DNA from: Lysobacterales bacterium | GTDB taxonomy: Bacteria > Pseudomonadota > Gammaproteobacteria > Xanthomonadales > SZUA-38 | Length of the DNA stretch: 64,000 bases | Assembly: GCA_028285525.1 (NCBI GenBank) | Contig: JANQOZ010000023.1 | Coordinates: forward strand, 1-64,000 | Direction: 5' to 3' | Shown: piece by piece, positions 4,476-48,399 of the stretch | How the letters are laid out: the number at the start of each line of letters is the position of its first letter | Numbering within the stretch: the stretch's first letter is position 1 | Translations under genes and position numbers: made by a program | The notes under the pieces: generated by a model | The model's database searches: none | Seen by the model: only the letters and a program-made list of their open reading frames with translations | Told to the model about the DNA's origin: nothing

Positions 4476-5027
4476 ATGAGGGGGAAAAAAGAACAGGAAT
4501 TTGAAGCGCTGTGGCAGCGCCACGGACCCGGCGTCCGAGCCAGACTCGTCAACCAGCGGCTCCTGGACCCTGCGATCGACGTCGACGACATCGAACAGGA
4601 AGTCAGAATCCGCCTGTGGCGCGTGCTGCAGACTGAGACACAGGTGACCCATGCTGCGTCTTATCTGAGAACCGTCGTCAACAGTGCCCTGATCGACGCG
4701 GTCCGGCGCGCCCAGGCGCGCGAGTCCAGTCGCCGGGGCGGAGAGTTCAACGAGCAGATGCACACAGCCACCAACAACGAAGGCCTCGCCGACCCGGTGC
4801 AGGGGCAGCAGCGCATGCAGGAACTGTCGGCCGCCGCCGAGTCAGCGCTGGAAGCGATGAGCGCCAACCGGCGCCGCGCGGTATCGCTGCGCCTTCACGG
4901 TCTTGCGGTCAACGAGATCGGCGCGCTTTGCGGCTGGTCCAGCGCGAAGGCCCGAAATCTCGTGTACCGTGGCCTCGAGCAGCTTCGCAGCGAGCTGGGC
5001 AAGCGAGGAATTGACCTTGAAAGTTAG
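4476..5027 (+). CDS. ECF-like sigma-70 family RNA polymerase sigma factor
   Basis: The 183-residue protein has a region 2 core (DIEQEVRIRLWRVL, then YLRTVVNSALIDAVRRAQ) and a region 4 helix-turn-helix near 130-175 (RRRAVSLRLHGLAVNEIGALCGWSSAKARNLVYRGLEQL). It is the size of small alternative sigma factors that respond to envelope or other signals. The start of the next gene lies inside its 3' end, and that gene encodes a one-pass membrane protein, the usual place for an anti-sigma factor. A third coupled gene encodes a PDZ-TPR-CHAT protein. The likely role is to direct transcription of its own operon and perhaps targets elsewhere. The start at the ATG 4476 lies 30 bp from the divergent chaC start. 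Confidence 0.85.
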   Translation: MRGKKEQEFEALWQRHGPGVRARLVNQRLLDPAIDVDDIEQEVRIRLWRVLQTETQVTHAASYLRTVVNSALIDAVRRAQARESSRRGGEFNEQMHTATNNEGLADPVQGQQRMQELSAAAESALEAMSANRRRAVSLRLHGLAVNEIGALCGWSSAKARNLVYRGLEQLRSELGKRGIDLES

Positions 5028-5589
5028 TGCGCAGGAACTGTCGAAGCTCATCAGCCGGCAGGATGATACGAACCCGCCGACCGCTGAGGAGCTGGCGGCT
5101 TTGGTCGACCAGACGCTGCCGCCGGACCGACGCGAAGCCGTGCTCAATCACCTGGAGCGCAGCCCGGACAGCGCCCGCGCCGTCGCCATCGCCCTAGAGC
5201 CGGGCGCAACCTCAGGCGGCGCCGGGTTCCGGTGGCTGGCAGTCGCTGCTTCAGCGGTCGCGGCCGTCGCGCTGGCGTCTGTCGTGTGGCTGGGGGGTAC
5301 TCCGGAAGAAGACACGCTGCGCGCCGCCGACCCATCCATTTCGCCCGCTCCCGGGGCCGTTATCTCCACCCCGGACGACCTGTTCAGCTGGCCGGCGCCG
5401 CCGGACCTTTCGCCTCGACGGGTCAGAATCATGAGCGCCGCCGCTGAGACCATCTGGCTGTCGGAACCGACCAGCCCGCCGGTAGATCTGCCGGCCGGAA
5501 CGGTCGCCAGCGGCAAGACCTACCTGTGGCAGCTGGAAGACGTGGACGGCACGGTGGTTGCCGGGCCCAACTGGTTCCGAATGCCGTGA
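5017..5589 (+). CDS. Putative membrane anti-sigma factor
   Basis: A protein of 190 residues from a TTG at 5017, chosen because AGGA (5006-5009) lies 7 bases upstream and the start overlaps the sigma-factor stop by 11 bp. Residues 20-55 (EELAALVDQTLPPDRREAVLNHLERSPDSARAVAIAL) look like an anti-sigma domain helix pair but lack the His/Cys zinc ligands of the ZAS type. One membrane segment follows (about 72-92, WLAVAASAVAAVALASVVWL). The remaining 100 residues would be periplasmic and form a small beta-rich domain (FSWPAP...TYLWQLEDVDGTVV). Layout and position suggest it holds the preceding sigma factor at the membrane; no database match was checked. It overlaps the next gene by 4 bp (GTGA). Confidence 0.7.
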   Translation: MKVSAQELSKLISRQDDTNPPTAEELAALVDQTLPPDRREAVLNHLERSPDSARAVAIALEPGATSGGAGFRWLAVAASAVAAVALASVVWLGGTPEEDTLRAADPSISPAPGAVISTPDDLFSWPAPPDLSPRRVRIMSAAAETIWLSEPTSPPVDLPAGTVASGKTYLWQLEDVDGTVVAGPNWFRMP

Positions 5590-8500
5590 CACTCGCAGGC
5601 CGGTGGCGGTTGGTGCGCCCCACGCTTCTGCTGATCTGCCTGCTGAGTACGCCGCTCCAGGCGCGCGTGCTGATCACCGAGGTCGTGCCCGGCCTCGCGG
5701 GAGAGCGGGCGGGTGTGCAGGTGGGCGACGTGCTCCTGGCCTGGGAACAGGGCGAACTACAGCGGCCGCTCACCTGGCCGATCGAGGTGGTGCGCGCAGC
5801 GGAGGTGGACGGTCTGCTCGAAGGCGGCACCGTCACCCTGCTCCGGGACGGACAAACGCTGAACCTCTCGCTGGGCCCCGGGGTCTGGGGCATCGCAACC
5901 GTACCCGACGCAGAGGCTGGCGGTGCTCTCGCATCGCTCTACCGACAGCTTCCCGAGCTGACCTCGCAATCCCTCGAACCGTTCCTCGCCGGCGCACGCA
6001 ACCAACCTGAGATCGACGATCGGCTGGCGCTGTACTGGCTGGCCGGTGATCACTTTCAGCAGATCGACGACCTTGAGAGCGCCGGTCGCTGCTGGCAGGA
6101 GGCCCTGGCGCTGGCAACCGATCCCGCCGAGCAGGCGCTGCTGCGCATGCGCTACGCCCGGGCGCTGATGAACACGTGGCAATCAGACGAGGCCCGCCGG
6201 CTGTATCAGCAGGCCCTCGAATTCTGGGAAGCGGTGCCGGCACCTCAGCATCAGCTGCAGCTCCAGACCCTGCTGGGCTTCGCCGCCTTCGAGCAGCGGG
6301 ACCTGCCCGCCGCAGACGCGGCGTTCAGTGCCGCGACGGCCCTGGTCCGTGAACACCCTGCCAGCCAGCCTCTGGCAGCGTCGGCGCTGCGAGGGATGGG
6401 CCAGGTACGCTCAATCCAGGGCGGCTTTGATGACGCGATAGCGCTCGGCAACGAGGCGCTTGATCTGGCCAAGGCCTACGCTCCCCGATCGCGGATCGAG
6501 GCGAAGGTCCTCAACTTTCTCGGCTACACGGTTGCGCGCACCCACGACGTGGCCGACGGCGAGGCCCTGATTCGCGACGCGATCGCGCTCGCTGACGAGG
6601 TCGAAGCGAGCGGCTTCACCTCGGCGGGTTTTCGCAACAATCTGGCGCTGATCTACTACCTGCGGCGGGACTACGCCTACGCCCAGACGCTTTACGAACA
6701 GGCGCTGGAGCGCTTCGAGCGGCGCAACCCTGTGAGCCCCGTTGTTGCCCGCACCCGCTACAACATTGCGCTGACCCTGGCCCGCCAGGACCTTCAGGCC
6801 GAATCGGCCGCCATGCTGGAGTCGGTCCTGGCGCTGCAGCGGCAGCTGGTACCCGGCACGGAGGATGAGGCGCGCACGCTCCACAGCCTCGCGTTTCGCT
6901 TCGCGGCAGCCGGTGAGCTGACCAAAGCCATTTCGACCGGCCGCGAGGCGGTTCAGCGCTACCGCGAGCTGTTGCCCGAGAGCTATCTGCTGACGAGCTC
7001 GCTCCATAAGCTTGGCGACATTTATATCCGAGCCGGGGACTATGCGGCCGCTCGAGATGCGCTTGAGGAGTCGTTAGAGATGGCCCGCCGTATCTCTCCG
7101 GAGAGTCAGGTTCACGCCGAGTCAGCCTTCGACCTGGGCCGCGTCTTGAGCGAGCTCGGCGAACCTTCGCTGCCGCTGTTTCGCGAAGCCGTCGAGGTGG
7201 TCGAGTCGCTGCAGGCTCGGCTCGGGGGTGGCGACGACGCCGTCAGCCGGTTTCGGGAGTACTACAGCCGATACTTCCGCCGCTTGATCGAAGCTGAGCT
7301 GGAGGCCGGCAACGATGAACCGGCGTTTGCGATCTCCGAACGGTATCGTGCGCAAAGCTTTCTCGCCGTGCTCGGCTCACGCCCCGCGGCGCTGACCAGC
7401 CGCCTTCCCCCGTCGCTCAAGGAACGCTGGAGCGATGCCCAGGCAGCCTATGAGGCGGCTCTCAAGGCGGCGGCCAGCGCTCCGGAGGACGAGCTGGAGG
7501 AGCTAAACCAGCAGGTCATCGTGGCACGGCAGGCCTGGCGGGACGCCGGCGACGAGCTGCGCAGCGCCGGTGGCGTCGGACACGTGATCGCCCCGCGCGC
7601 GGCCACGCCCGAGCTGGTGGCCGAATCTCTGGAGGACGGCCAGGTGGTCATCAGCTACGTCTCCCAGCCGGCGCACACCGACGTATTCTTGATCGATGCC
7701 GCCGGCATGCTGAGTCATCATCGGCTCGCGTTTTCCCGGGCACAGCTCAGTGAAACCGTCAACCAGATCCGCGTCCTGATGGCGGTACCGGACGCCGGCT
7801 CCGCGAGCCAGGAAACGCTCGAGCGGAAGCTTAAGATACTCGGGGAGGCCCTGATTGCTCCGCTGCTGCCCGTGCTGGATGACGTCAAGAGGCTGGTGGT
7901 GATTCCTGACGGAGAGCTTTGGCTGGCCCCGCTGGCCGCGCTGATCACCGACGACCGCTATCTGCTTGAGCGGTTTGAGGTGCAGCTCGGCTGGTCAGCG
8001 ACGGCCTACCAGGCCGACCGACCGACCCCGGTCAACGAGCTGCTGCTGGCGATGGCAGATCCCGGCATCGTCAGCGGCCCAGGTAATGGTGAGGACACAA
8101 CCCGGGACAACGTCCGCCAGGGTCAGCCCTCACTGCCGGGCGCGCGCCAGGAGGTTAACCGGATCGCGAGTTTCTTCTCCAAGCGCGAGGTGTATCTCGA
8201 TACCCAGGCCAGCGAACGGAATTTTCGCCAGGTCGCCGCAAGTGCGGATGTGGTGCACGTCGCCGCGCATGCCGTCACCCGGGTCGACCCGCCGATCGAG
8301 TCGTACCTCCAGCTCGAGGGCGATGAGCAGCACGATGGGCGATTAATGGCCTGGGAAGTGCTCGAGAATCTGAATCTCAAAGCCCAGCTCGTCACGCTAT
8401 CGGGGTGCGCCACAGCCCTGGGAGAAGGTGCGGGCGGCGAGGGGCTGATGGGACTGACCCGCGCTTTTGGTGTCGCCGGGGCCCAGCGCGTGCTCGCGAG

Positions 8501-8711
8501 CCTGTGGCCGGTTTCGGACCAGGCGACCGCTGGCCTTATGACCACGTTCTATGAGAACCGCGCGGCCGGTATGGACGATGCTCAGGCGCTGCGCGAGGCC
8601 CAGCTCACGTTCTTGCGTCCTTCCTTTACCCAGCGGCTGCTGAGCGGTTTCGACGACAGCCGCAGCCACCCATTTTACTGGGCCGCATTTTCGCTCTACG
8701 GGGCGCGATAG
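5586..8711 (+). CDS. Exported PDZ-TPR-CHAT domain protein (caspase-like peptidase)
   Basis: The 1041-residue protein starts at a GTG at 5586 that overlaps the upstream stop (GTGA), which gives a clear signal peptide (Arg-rich start, PTLLLICLLSTPL core, cleavage after LQA). Residues of about 27-110 look like a PDZ domain (VLITEVVPGLAGERAGVQVGDVLLAW...TVTLLRDGQ). About 115-610 is a TPR-type helical array (repeated A-x-x-x-Y-x-x-A-L). The last 270 residues or so are a CHAT caspase-like domain with His895 in VVHVAAHA and Cys941 in LSGCATA, the expected catalytic dyad, followed by GEGLMGLTRAF and W-P-V-S-D. A periplasmic peptidase tied to a sigma/anti-sigma pair is unusual. Its 3' end overlaps the convergent monooxygenase gene by 16 bp. 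Confidence 0.9.
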   Translation: MTLAGRWRLVRPTLLLICLLSTPLQARVLITEVVPGLAGERAGVQVGDVLLAWEQGELQRPLTWPIEVVRAAEVDGLLEGGTVTLLRDGQTLNLSLGPGVWGIATVPDAEAGGALASLYRQLPELTSQSLEPFLAGARNQPEIDDRLALYWLAGDHFQQIDDLESAGRCWQEALALATDPAEQALLRMRYARALMNTWQSDEARRLYQQALEFWEAVPAPQHQLQLQTLLGFAAFEQRDLPAADAAFSAATALVREHPASQPLAASALRGMGQVRSIQGGFDDAIALGNEALDLAKAYAPRSRIEAKVLNFLGYTVARTHDVADGEALIRDAIALADEVEASGFTSAGFRNNLALIYYLRRDYAYAQTLYEQALERFERRNPVSPVVARTRYNIALTLARQDLQAESAAMLESVLALQRQLVPGTEDEARTLHSLAFRFAAAGELTKAISTGREAVQRYRELLPESYLLTSSLHKLGDIYIRAGDYAAARDALEESLEMARRISPESQVHAESAFDLGRVLSELGEPSLPLFREAVEVVESLQARLGGGDDAVSRFREYYSRYFRRLIEAELEAGNDEPAFAISERYRAQSFLAVLGSRPAALTSRLPPSLKERWSDAQAAYEAALKAAASAPEDELEELNQQVIVARQAWRDAGDELRSAGGVGHVIAPRAATPELVAESLEDGQVVISYVSQPAHTDVFLIDAAGMLSHHRLAFSRAQLSETVNQIRVLMAVPDAGSASQETLERKLKILGEALIAPLLPVLDDVKRLVVIPDGELWLAPLAALITDDRYLLERFEVQLGWSATAYQADRPTPVNELLLAMADPGIVSGPGNGEDTTRDNVRQGQPSLPGARQEVNRIASFFSKREVYLDTQASERNFRQVAASADVVHVAAHAVTRVDPPIESYLQLEGDEQHDGRLMAWEVLENLNLKAQLVTLSGCATALGEGAGGEGLMGLTRAFGVAGAQRVLASLWPVSDQATAGLMTTFYENRAAGMDDAQALREAQLTFLRPSFTQRLLSGFDDSRSHPFYWAAFSLYGAR

Positions 8712-46158: not shown

Positions 46159-48399
46159 ATGGAATGTCTCAACACTTATGCAAAAAGACGATCGTTGCGG
46201 GCGCTGCGCTGGGCCTGTGGCCTGCTGCTGGCAGGAGGCTTTCAGCTGGCGCTGGCCGGCGTTGAGCCGGTAGTCAGCATCACTTCTGCGGATCCGACCG
46301 CGGATGAAGCCGGTCCGGACGTCGCAACGTTCACGGTGACCCGGTCGGTGGTGACCGCACAATCTCTGACGGTGAACCTCGCGCTTGCCGGTTCGGCGGC
46401 CCGTCTGACCGACTACCAGATCACCAGCCTGCTGGGCGGCTCCCCCTTTGCGGTCAGCATCCCGGCCAATCAGAATAGCCTGACGGTGACCATTACGCCG
46501 AATCCCGACAATACGGTTGAGGGCACTGAGGACGTGGTGGCAACGCTGCAGCCAGGCTCCGGCTACCAGGTCGACGGCGTTGACGACGAGGTGACGCTGA
46601 CCATCGCGGACGACGTGGCTGAGGTGAATGTTTTTGTCGTTGACGCGGCAATGGACGAGCAGGGCCAGGTCCCAGGCCGCTTTCGGGTGACCCGCTCACC
46701 CAACGGCAATACGGCAGCCACGCTGACGGTCGATATAGACATCACCGGCACGGCGACACGCAACGTTGACTACCAGACCGACGGGATCATCGGCGGCAAC
46801 CCGCTGGCGGTGACCCTTGGTGCCAACGAGCTGGAAACCATTGTGCTGCTGACGCCCCGGCTGGATTCGATCGTCGAAGGCACTGAAACGATTCAGGTCA
46901 CGCTGGTGCCCGACCCGACGAGCTACACCGTGGGAGCCGACACGCAGGCGGACCTGACGCTTGCCGACTCGGTGCCCGAGGTGAATCTCACCTTGGTGGA
47001 AGGCGCGATGGATGAAGCGGGACCGGTGACCGGGAGATTTCGCGTGACGCGAACCAATGCGGGCAACCCTACCGCGGCTCTGTCCGTCAACATCGACATC
47101 ACCGGCAGTGCCCAGCGCAACGTCGACTACAACCTCCCGGGCATCTTCGCCGGCAGTCCGCTGGCCGTCCAGATCCCTGCCAACGTCAACGAAGCGGAAT
47201 TTGTTCTCACGCCGCGCCAGGACAACATCGTTGAAGGCGTGGAGGACGTCCAGATCACGCTCCAACCCGATCCGTCGCTCTACACTGTAGGCACTCAAAC
47301 CCAGGCGGACCTCACGCTGGCCGACAGCGTAACCGAGGTCAATCTGAGCGTCGTCGACAGCGCGATGGATGAGGCGGGACTCGTCCCCGGCACGTATCGG
47401 GTTACCCGCACCAACGCCGGCAATATAGACCAGGCGATAACGGTCAACGTGGATGTCACCGGAACCGCCGCGATCAACACCGACTACCGACCCATCAACC
47501 TGTTTGGCGGCGCACCTTTTGCGGTGACTCTGGGCATCGGAGAAACCGAAGCGATCTTTACGTTCGAACCTCGCGCTGACAACGTGCTTGAGGAAACCGA
47601 GACGATCGTTGTGACCCTGCAGCCGAACGCGTCGACCTACACCGTTGGCACGCAAACCCAGGCGGACTTCACGCTCGCCGACGATCCGGTTGTGGTGACG
47701 CTGACGCCGGAAGACGACACGCTTGCCGAACAGGACCTGGAGACCGGAAGCTTCCTGGTGACCCGCAGCAATAACGGCGACCTCACCCGCTCCCTCCAGG
47801 TGAATCTGGCGGTGGGCGGCACGGCAACACAAAACGTCGACTACCGCATTGATGACGTCTTCGGCTCCTCACCCGCAACGACCACCATTCCGGCGAACGA
47901 GCTGGAGGCCCGGATCATTCTCACGCCCATCGCCGACCAGCCAGACAACGAGCCGGATGAAAGCATCGAGCTGACCCTGCTGGAGAGTGACAGCTACAGC
48001 GTCGGCACCGCCACCCCGCTGGCCTTCACGCTGTTTGATCTGATCGATTTCCTCTTTTCCGATAGCTTTGAGCTTGCGCCGGTTCCCAAGTCCTGCAGCC
48101 TCAGCGAACTCTCGAAGCTTGCGCCGGAACGATTTGTCGATCAGGGCAGCAGCTTTCTGGATCTGGAGACCGGGCTCAGCTGGTCGCGCTGCGGCCTGAC
48201 GGGGCGCCAGGATCCCGCCGGCTCGGAGTGCCTGCAAGACAACGTCGCCACCTGGCCAGAACTCGGCGAGGGTTACTGGCTGGAGCGATTCAACGAGGGC
48301 TGGATCGGCGACAACGAAGGATTCAGCAGCTGGCGTGAGGCGAAAGCCGCGGAGCTTCAGTCTCTGCCCGTAGCCTGCAGCAGCGCCTTGGTCCGCTGA
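46159..48399 (+). CDS. Secreted Calx-beta repeat protein with C-terminal Lcl-type domain
   Basis: The 746-residue protein starts at the ATG 46159 (GAGG 9 bases upstream). A signal peptide (LRWACGLLLAGGFQLALA) is followed by five tandem repeats of exactly 119 residues (about 36-630), each a Calx-beta-type beta-sandwich with E-V-N-L, A-M-D-E-A-G, F-R-V-T-R, N-V-D-Y, and E-x-T-E-x-I-x-V-T-L motifs. A final region of about 100 residues with four or more cysteines (CSLSELSKLAP...WSRCGLTG...SECL) resembles the DUF1566/Lcl C-terminal domain. Calx-beta repeats bind calcium and build surface adhesins. The protein is probably secreted or surface bound. DNA repeats of 357 bp are noted separately. Confidence 0.87.
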   Translation: MECLNTYAKRRSLRALRWACGLLLAGGFQLALAGVEPVVSITSADPTADEAGPDVATFTVTRSVVTAQSLTVNLALAGSAARLTDYQITSLLGGSPFAVSIPANQNSLTVTITPNPDNTVEGTEDVVATLQPGSGYQVDGVDDEVTLTIADDVAEVNVFVVDAAMDEQGQVPGRFRVTRSPNGNTAATLTVDIDITGTATRNVDYQTDGIIGGNPLAVTLGANELETIVLLTPRLDSIVEGTETIQVTLVPDPTSYTVGADTQADLTLADSVPEVNLTLVEGAMDEAGPVTGRFRVTRTNAGNPTAALSVNIDITGSAQRNVDYNLPGIFAGSPLAVQIPANVNEAEFVLTPRQDNIVEGVEDVQITLQPDPSLYTVGTQTQADLTLADSVTEVNLSVVDSAMDEAGLVPGTYRVTRTNAGNIDQAITVNVDVTGTAAINTDYRPINLFGGAPFAVTLGIGETEAIFTFEPRADNVLEETETIVVTLQPNASTYTVGTQTQADFTLADDPVVVTLTPEDDTLAEQDLETGSFLVTRSNNGDLTRSLQVNLAVGGTATQNVDYRIDDVFGSSPATTTIPANELEARIILTPIADQPDNEPDESIELTLLESDSYSVGTATPLAFTLFDLIDFLFSDSFELAPVPKSCSLSELSKLAPERFVDQGSSFLDLETGLSWSRCGLTGRQDPAGSECLQDNVATWPELGEGYWLERFNEGWIGDNEGFSSWREAKAAELQSLPVACSSALVR
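46264..48048 (+). repeat. Five tandem 357-bp coding repeats
   Basis: Units begin at 46264, 46621, 46978, 47335 and 47692 with the same length of 357 bp (119 codons) each, judged from the GAG-GT-AAT (E-V-N) start of each unit. They encode the Calx-beta repeats of the secreted protein. Sequence similarity is high between units 2, 3 and 4 and lower for units 1 and 5. Such an array can gain or lose units by recombination. Confidence 0.8.

Follow-up and report, generated by a model that had tools for sequence, protein, structure and literature searches.

Three genes of type III-E CRISPR systems, coding for the TPR-CHAT protease Csx29, the sigma inhibitor Csx30 and the ECF-like sigma factor CASP-sigma, are encoded together (PMC10028731; PDB 8EEY). 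Csx29, a CHAT protein, cleaves the sigma inhibitor Csx30 (PMC10028731). A second described arrangement is DdvA/DdvS of Myxococcus xanthus, in which an ECF sigma factor is kept under a transmembrane (TM) anti-sigma factor with a CHAT part (PDB 8ROT, 8RW5; PMC4374960, PMC12288465). DdvS, the sigma partner of DdvA, controls an antiphage island (PMC4374960, PMC12288465). Furthermore, a review mentions CHAT, subtilase and carboxypeptidase genes near the ECF54 group of sigma factors and a proposed proteolytic action (PMC8999054). Because of these three precedents, the kind of system described here has to be regarded as already known. In the open-access literature the terms "CHAT domain" and "anti-sigma" were found together only in the Csx29 paper.

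We analyzed a stretch of 64,000 nucleotides (the window) carrying a triad of genes for a sigma factor, an anti-sigma factor and an exported CHAT protein. The features of the triad are as follows:

4476..5027, + strand: ECF-type sigma factor, 183 aa, regions 2 and 4 (ATG start; Pfam region 2 E 6e-7, region 4_2 E 1e-6; TIGR02937 E 5e-15)
5017..5589, + strand: predicted one-TM anti-sigma factor, 190 aa (TTG start; sub-threshold zf-HC2; model)
5236..5292, + strand: TM segment of the anti-sigma factor, aa 74-92 (hydropathy)
5320..5325, + strand: Arg102-Ala103 in the periplasmic linker, candidate scissile site with Arg at P1 and a small residue at P1' (conservation, shuffle test)
5338..5586, + strand: periplasmic beta-sandwich domain of the anti-sigma factor (AlphaFold2 pLDDT ~80; weak Ig/FN3-like Foldseek matches)
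5586..8711, + strand: PDZ-TPR-CHAT protein, predicted to be exported, 1041 aa (GTG start; Pfam, model)
5586..5663, + strand: predicted signal peptide, aa 1-26 (hydropathy rule and orthologs)
5664..5885, + strand: PDZ-like domain of DegP/HtrA/RseP type, ~aa 27-100 (PDB profile matches; low pLDDT)
5925..7220, + strand: TPR superhelix, ~aa 114-545 (Pfam TPR_12 E 3e-38; pLDDT mostly 85-98)
7827..8702, + strand: CHAT (separase/caspase-like) peptidase domain, aa 748-1039 (PF12770 E 6.5e-69)
8268..8270, + strand: catalytic His895 by homology, codon CAT (invariant in 61/61 sigma-linked CHATs)
8406..8408, + strand: catalytic Cys941 by homology, codon TGC (invariant in 61/61 sigma-linked CHATs)

The sigma and anti-sigma genes overlap by 11 bp, the anti-sigma and CHAT genes by 4 bp (GTGA), and this layout suggests autoregulation. 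The sigma factor contains only the sigma-70 regions 2 and 4, has the size of ECF members (~180-200 aa) and matched TIGR02937 and both Pfam regions above the cut-offs. Orthologous triads were found at 66% identity within the genus of the window organism and at 49% in a second genus of its family. Promoter conservation 5' of the sigma gene was uninformative, since a divergent gene, likewise conserved, overlaps the leader. The window carries a second gene of the sigma-70 family (1344-2222) with regions 1.2, 2 and 4, RpoH-like by size, ~2 kb 5' of the ECF sigma gene. A Calx-beta-like repeat protein is encoded directly 5' of the orthologous triad in locus L144 (2633-4954); a protein of this type with a similar C-terminus lies ~40 kb from the triad in the window (46159-48399).

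The anti-sigma protein consists of a predicted N-terminal helical sigma-binding domain, the TM segment and a periplasmic Ig/FN3-like domain. Because Arg precedes the TM segment and acidic residues follow it, the N-terminus is probably inside and the C-terminus outside. The AlphaFold2 model is of low confidence overall, with N-terminal helices, a poorly modelled TM segment and a confident C-terminal beta-sandwich, for which Foldseek gave weak Ig/FN3-like matches and none with E < 0.001. As in class I (ASD/ZAS) anti-sigma factors, the gene is located directly 3' of an ECF sigma gene and the product has N-terminal helices (low confidence) and one TM segment. The zinc motif HxxxCxxC, present in many but not all members of that class, is kept by relatives (L144, L146), whereas the window protein reads HLERSPDSA and has lost the cysteines; its zf-HC2 match stayed at 17.3 bits against a Pfam cut-off of 22.2. 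Architecture and operon together indicate that the protein would hold the ECF sigma factor in the cytoplasm.

The third gene had been described by the sequence-only reading as coding for a signal peptide, a PDZ-like domain, a TPR array and a CHAT domain with His895 and Cys941, overlapping its neighbours as given above, and all of this was borne out by orthologs, Pfam matches and codons. The first 26 residues form a typical signal peptide, conserved among orthologs, which supports the predicted export to the periplasm. The PDZ-like domain is below the Pfam cut-off in the window protein and gave sub-threshold Pfam PDZ matches in three orthologs; a profile of the three orthologs matched the PDZ domains of DegP, DegQ, HtrA2 and RseP in the PDB (best E 3e-5), identifying it as of the DegS/DegP type. 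Among the relatives searched, PDZ domains on CHAT proteins were restricted to the family of the window.

His895 and Cys941 align with the catalytic residues of Csx29 and separase. A CHAT profile against the PDB matched Csx29/TPR-CHAT (E 4e-16), DdvA (E 3e-11) and separase (E 3e-5). A single-sequence phmmer search with the CHAT of the window missed Csx29, which was found by the profile searches. The model of the protein (mean pLDDT 82, lowest across the signal peptide and PDZ domain) had its best structural matches in Csx29 (8EEY; Foldseek E 7e-16, VIA Z 33.6), separase and DdvA (Z 23.3). Thus, the order typical of TPR-CHAT proteins, a TPR array followed by a CHAT domain with a His-Cys dyad, is present, and both homology and model identify a TPR superhelix and a separase-like CHAT cysteine peptidase with an intact active-site dyad. 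The dyad was kept in all 61 sigma-linked CHATs, and among the 131 unlinked CHATs 12 lacked both residues (p 0.01; the losses may be one clade); therefore, peptidase activity seems important here. CHAT-like pseudo-peptidases without His and Cys, none of them sigma-linked, are located at L119, L120, L124, L125, L126, L130, L131, L133, L137, L138, L140 and L141. An anti-phage assignment of the locus was discarded, the PADLOC matches being weak (BovA, E 1e-3).

Compared to the CRISPR triad, the window shares the gene content as well as the fold and dyad of the protease. However, Csx29 is cytosolic, bound to Cas7-11, activated by RNA and has neither PDZ domain nor signal peptide, and Csx30 is soluble, with no reported cleavage after Arg. 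By eye, ORFs near the triad looked unlike Cas7-11. In DdvA, anti-sigma factor and CHAT are one protein, a putative protease; in the window there are two genes, the CHAT protein carries a PDZ domain and a signal peptide, and the single-chain order of DdvA (anti-sigma, TM, TPR-CHAT) is absent. The triad resembles DegS/RseP-RseA-sigma E in having a PDZ-bearing periplasmic candidate site-1 protease, a one-TM anti-sigma factor and an M50 protease for a second step. Unlike the trypsin-like serine protease DegS, the candidate here is a cysteine CHAT peptidase of another fold and catalytic type, with a PDZ domain that, among the CHAT proteins of the relatives searched, was restricted to the family of the window; Pfam gave no trypsin-like domain, leaving the PDZ domain as the only part shared with DegS/HtrA. 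For ECF54, finally, an action independent of any anti-sigma factor is described, unlike the window triad.

Related loci fell into five forms. Form A (the window; Wenzhouxiangella) consists of sigma, an FN3-like anti-sigma and an exported CHAT. Among the carriers of this triad is a cultivable relative, Wenzhouxiangella sp. XN79A. In form B, sigma is followed by a different one-TM anti-sigma and by CHAT, often with an extra gene for a small secreted protein or for a trypsin-, peroxidase- or, in Acidobacteriota, C11-type product. Form C carries a one-TM Ser/Thr kinase with a C-terminal DUF4384 between sigma and CHAT, replacing the anti-sigma in eight loci (L084:4369-5952, L041:8642-10378, L081, L087, L089, L095, L098 and L099; kinase identity from Pfam in 2 of the 8, the other six grouped by sequence similarity). 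Therefore, cleavage of an anti-sigma factor is not the job of every exported CHAT. Form S (Chloroflexi, Burkholderiales and others) combines sigma with a soluble anti-sigma and a CHAT lacking a signal peptide. Form F, from Acidobacteriota, joins anti-sigma, TM, TPR and CHAT in a single polypeptide encoded 23-61 bp after sigma; such fusions were found in L167, L169 and L222 and are homologous to DdvA (E 3e-10).

Several side observations concern these loci. Genes inside sigma/anti-sigma/CHAT operons code for a C11 clostripain-like (L199:2806-4287), a haem-peroxidase-like (L105:4550-5884) and a trypsin-like protein (L109:3381-3923). Small, often secreted proteins are encoded between anti-sigma and CHAT at L055:7880-8554, L068:3547-4131, L083:4810-5499, L109:3790-4476, L122 and L123. 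The one from L055, the sole one scanned, had no known domain. Several of them have similar Gly/Asp/Glu-rich C-termini (e.g. GSDGEG, DDEGTGQEP, DDEAEGYHED); they are possibly CHAT substrates, or the tails may be a sorting tag. Very large CHAT families, with 38 and 21 matches per genome, are present in the genomes of L167 (G265) and L169 (G264). The genome of the window itself contains on contig C89 (L062:73-4183) a second triad of sigma, one-TM anti-sigma and CHAT, the CHAT protein of which (931 aa) differs from that of the window.

The compartments of the partners match. Of the CHATs with a TM partner, 34/47 carried a signal peptide, vs none of 6 with a soluble partner (p 0.001; called by one fixed rule, several of the 13 misses looking like signal peptides by eye). 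CHAT export thus tracks partner topology, which places CHAT in the same compartment as the C-terminal domain of the anti-sigma factor.

In Lysobacterales, a same-strand sigma gene was located within 3 kb upstream of 42 of the 92 CHAT genes with at least 3 kb of available sequence, compared to 2/92 on the opposite strand (Fisher p 4e-13; the genomes, being related, are not independent samples). A sigma gene of the same type lay on the same strand within 3.5 kb upstream of 46 of the 107 CHAT genes from relatives, and about half of all CHAT genes are without such a gene. With ~69 sigma matches in a genome of 6.2 Mb, the chance of finding one beside CHAT is ~2%. In this genome, 20 further sigma loci were examined over ~4 kb downstream each, and none was followed by a CHAT gene. 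Inheritance of the linkage as a one-off event was rejected: the label "none" needs 29 changes on the CHAT tree, at least 15 of them forced by supported branches, so that the linkage was gained or lost repeatedly (fasttree, with long-branch warnings). Of the B-type anti-sigma relatives, 35/45 lie within 6.5 kb of a CHAT gene (21 upstream, 7 on the opposite strand and 7 downstream). For the anti-sigma family of the window (class A), matches of at least 36 bits in 121 genomes occurred only beside CHAT, the two exceptions to the pairing both being at contig ends. The coupling of sigma/anti-sigma and CHAT is therefore far above chance and conserved across families and phyla. The sequence-only reading had proposed to look for the gene triplet elsewhere and would have been contradicted by a CHAT gene found mostly without the pair. 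In the subfamily of the window this does not apply, every evaluable strong anti-sigma homolog being beside CHAT; among CHATs in general, the half without an upstream sigma limits the statement.

We consider it moderately probable that the operon is a regulated-proteolysis switch in which the exported CHAT acts as site-1 protease on the anti-sigma factor and sigma is released. The one-TM anti-sigma would keep the ECF sigma silent in the cytoplasm. An envelope signal may be read by the PDZ and/or TPR part, activating CHAT allosterically as target RNA does with Csx29. Activated CHAT would then cut the anti-sigma and so release the beta-sandwich; the most likely place is the linker next to the membrane on the periplasmic side, perhaps R102-A103, the bond suggested by conservation. 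The second cut, freeing sigma, could be made by an RseP-like M50 protease, which is encoded in the genome. Such a circuit had been suggested by the sequence-only reading with CHAT "in place of DegS/RseP"; this wording is too strong in view of the M50 protease, and the interpretation as a whole is partly supported. The experimental anchor is the cleavage of Csx30 by Csx29. Against the switch stand the kinase loci, the many CHATs without upstream sigma and two points taken up below, the Arg of CHAT-less anti-sigmas and the absent separase Asp; a cysteine protease in the oxidising periplasm would also be unusual.

The main rival, rather unlikely in our view, makes CHAT an output. Here, the sigma pair would sense envelope stress alone and drive its own operon, with CHAT as an induced periplasmic effector protease on foreign or damaged proteins and the anti-sigma left untouched. 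Autoregulated operons of sigma, anti-sigma and effector are common, and many class B loci contain further genes for small secreted proteins or for trypsin-like, C11 or peroxidase-like products. The kinase-linked CHATs, with no anti-sigma to cut, and the half of CHATs without upstream sigma also speak for this explanation. The switch is nevertheless favoured because anti-sigma and CHAT are fused in one chain in form F and DdvA, because their compartments match, and because the class A anti-sigma is paired near-exclusively with CHAT.

The position of a first cut may be narrowed by conservation. In the post-TM alignment of 38 anti-sigma partners (17% mean identity), one column has 37 Arg and a single Lys, with G, A, S or N as the next residue in 38/38. 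All 34 class A and B proteins (the class B partner L111 left out because of a wrong gene call) had R[GASN] within the first 40 residues past the TM segment, vs 19.0 expected from shuffling (0/2000); the reversed dipeptide was not enriched in the same test. An Arg-small motif was also present in 6/6 soluble partners, in 5/5 fused proteins between TM and TPR, and in two held-out anti-sigmas. R102-A103 thus looks as a conserved scissile site would and is our candidate.

Separase, the eukaryotic relative of CHAT, cleaves after Arg. According to the profile alignment, the position of its P1-Arg reader D2151 is taken by A982 in the window CHAT and K670 in Csx29, so Arg reading of the separase type at this position is ruled out. 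Csx29, for which cleavage after Arg is not reported, cuts elsewhere (PMC9729208). At a fixed place the motif was absent from the kinase partners, and it is kept in six B-type anti-sigmas without CHAT within 6.5 kb. The latter rules it out as an exclusive mark of CHAT; its role could instead be a structural one, or that of a site for another protease. Taken together, the motif is therefore a testable lead and not proof.

Two of these points speak for an explanation that we regard as improbable: the Arg motif would have a structural role in linker or beta-sandwich or be recognised by a general periplasmic protease, and CHAT would cut the anti-sigma elsewhere or cut the inhibitor of another protease. 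CHAT-less anti-sigmas with the motif and the missing S1 acid of separase fit this well, but the motif also occurs in soluble cytosolic and fused forms with little else in common. That the TPR/PDZ part binds the beta-sandwich plus a ligand and alters sigma binding across the membrane without cutting, proteolysis having another purpose or being done by other proteases, recalls the CHAT-bearing DdvA, which acts as an anti-sigma with no known inactivating signal (PMC4374960), but fits poorly with a dyad fully kept in 61 divergent linked CHATs and has a low probability.

Beyond the window, the switch may be extended to a tentative general proposal, which we consider possible but doubtful. Exported TPR-CHATs would then be a widespread site-1 protease class for anti-sigmas that cuts after the conserved Arg, close to the membrane on its outer side, and that exists in cytosolic, periplasmic and fused versions matched to the topology of the partner; Craspase (Csx29-Csx30-sigma) and DdvA-DdvS would be specialised members of one sigma-switch lineage. 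As far as the open-access literature shows, what is new is the split, exported form with its PDZ domain, how widely it occurs, and the Arg site. Arg102-Ala103 and the dyad make the switch testable by single point mutants. If the proposal is true, many unexplained exported CHAT proteins would gain a job, and a separase-like class would be added to the small number of protease classes that are known to initiate the proteolysis of anti-sigmas. A common signalling layout would then be shared by Myxococcus DdvA and the CRISPR-linked Csx29-Csx30-sigma triad.
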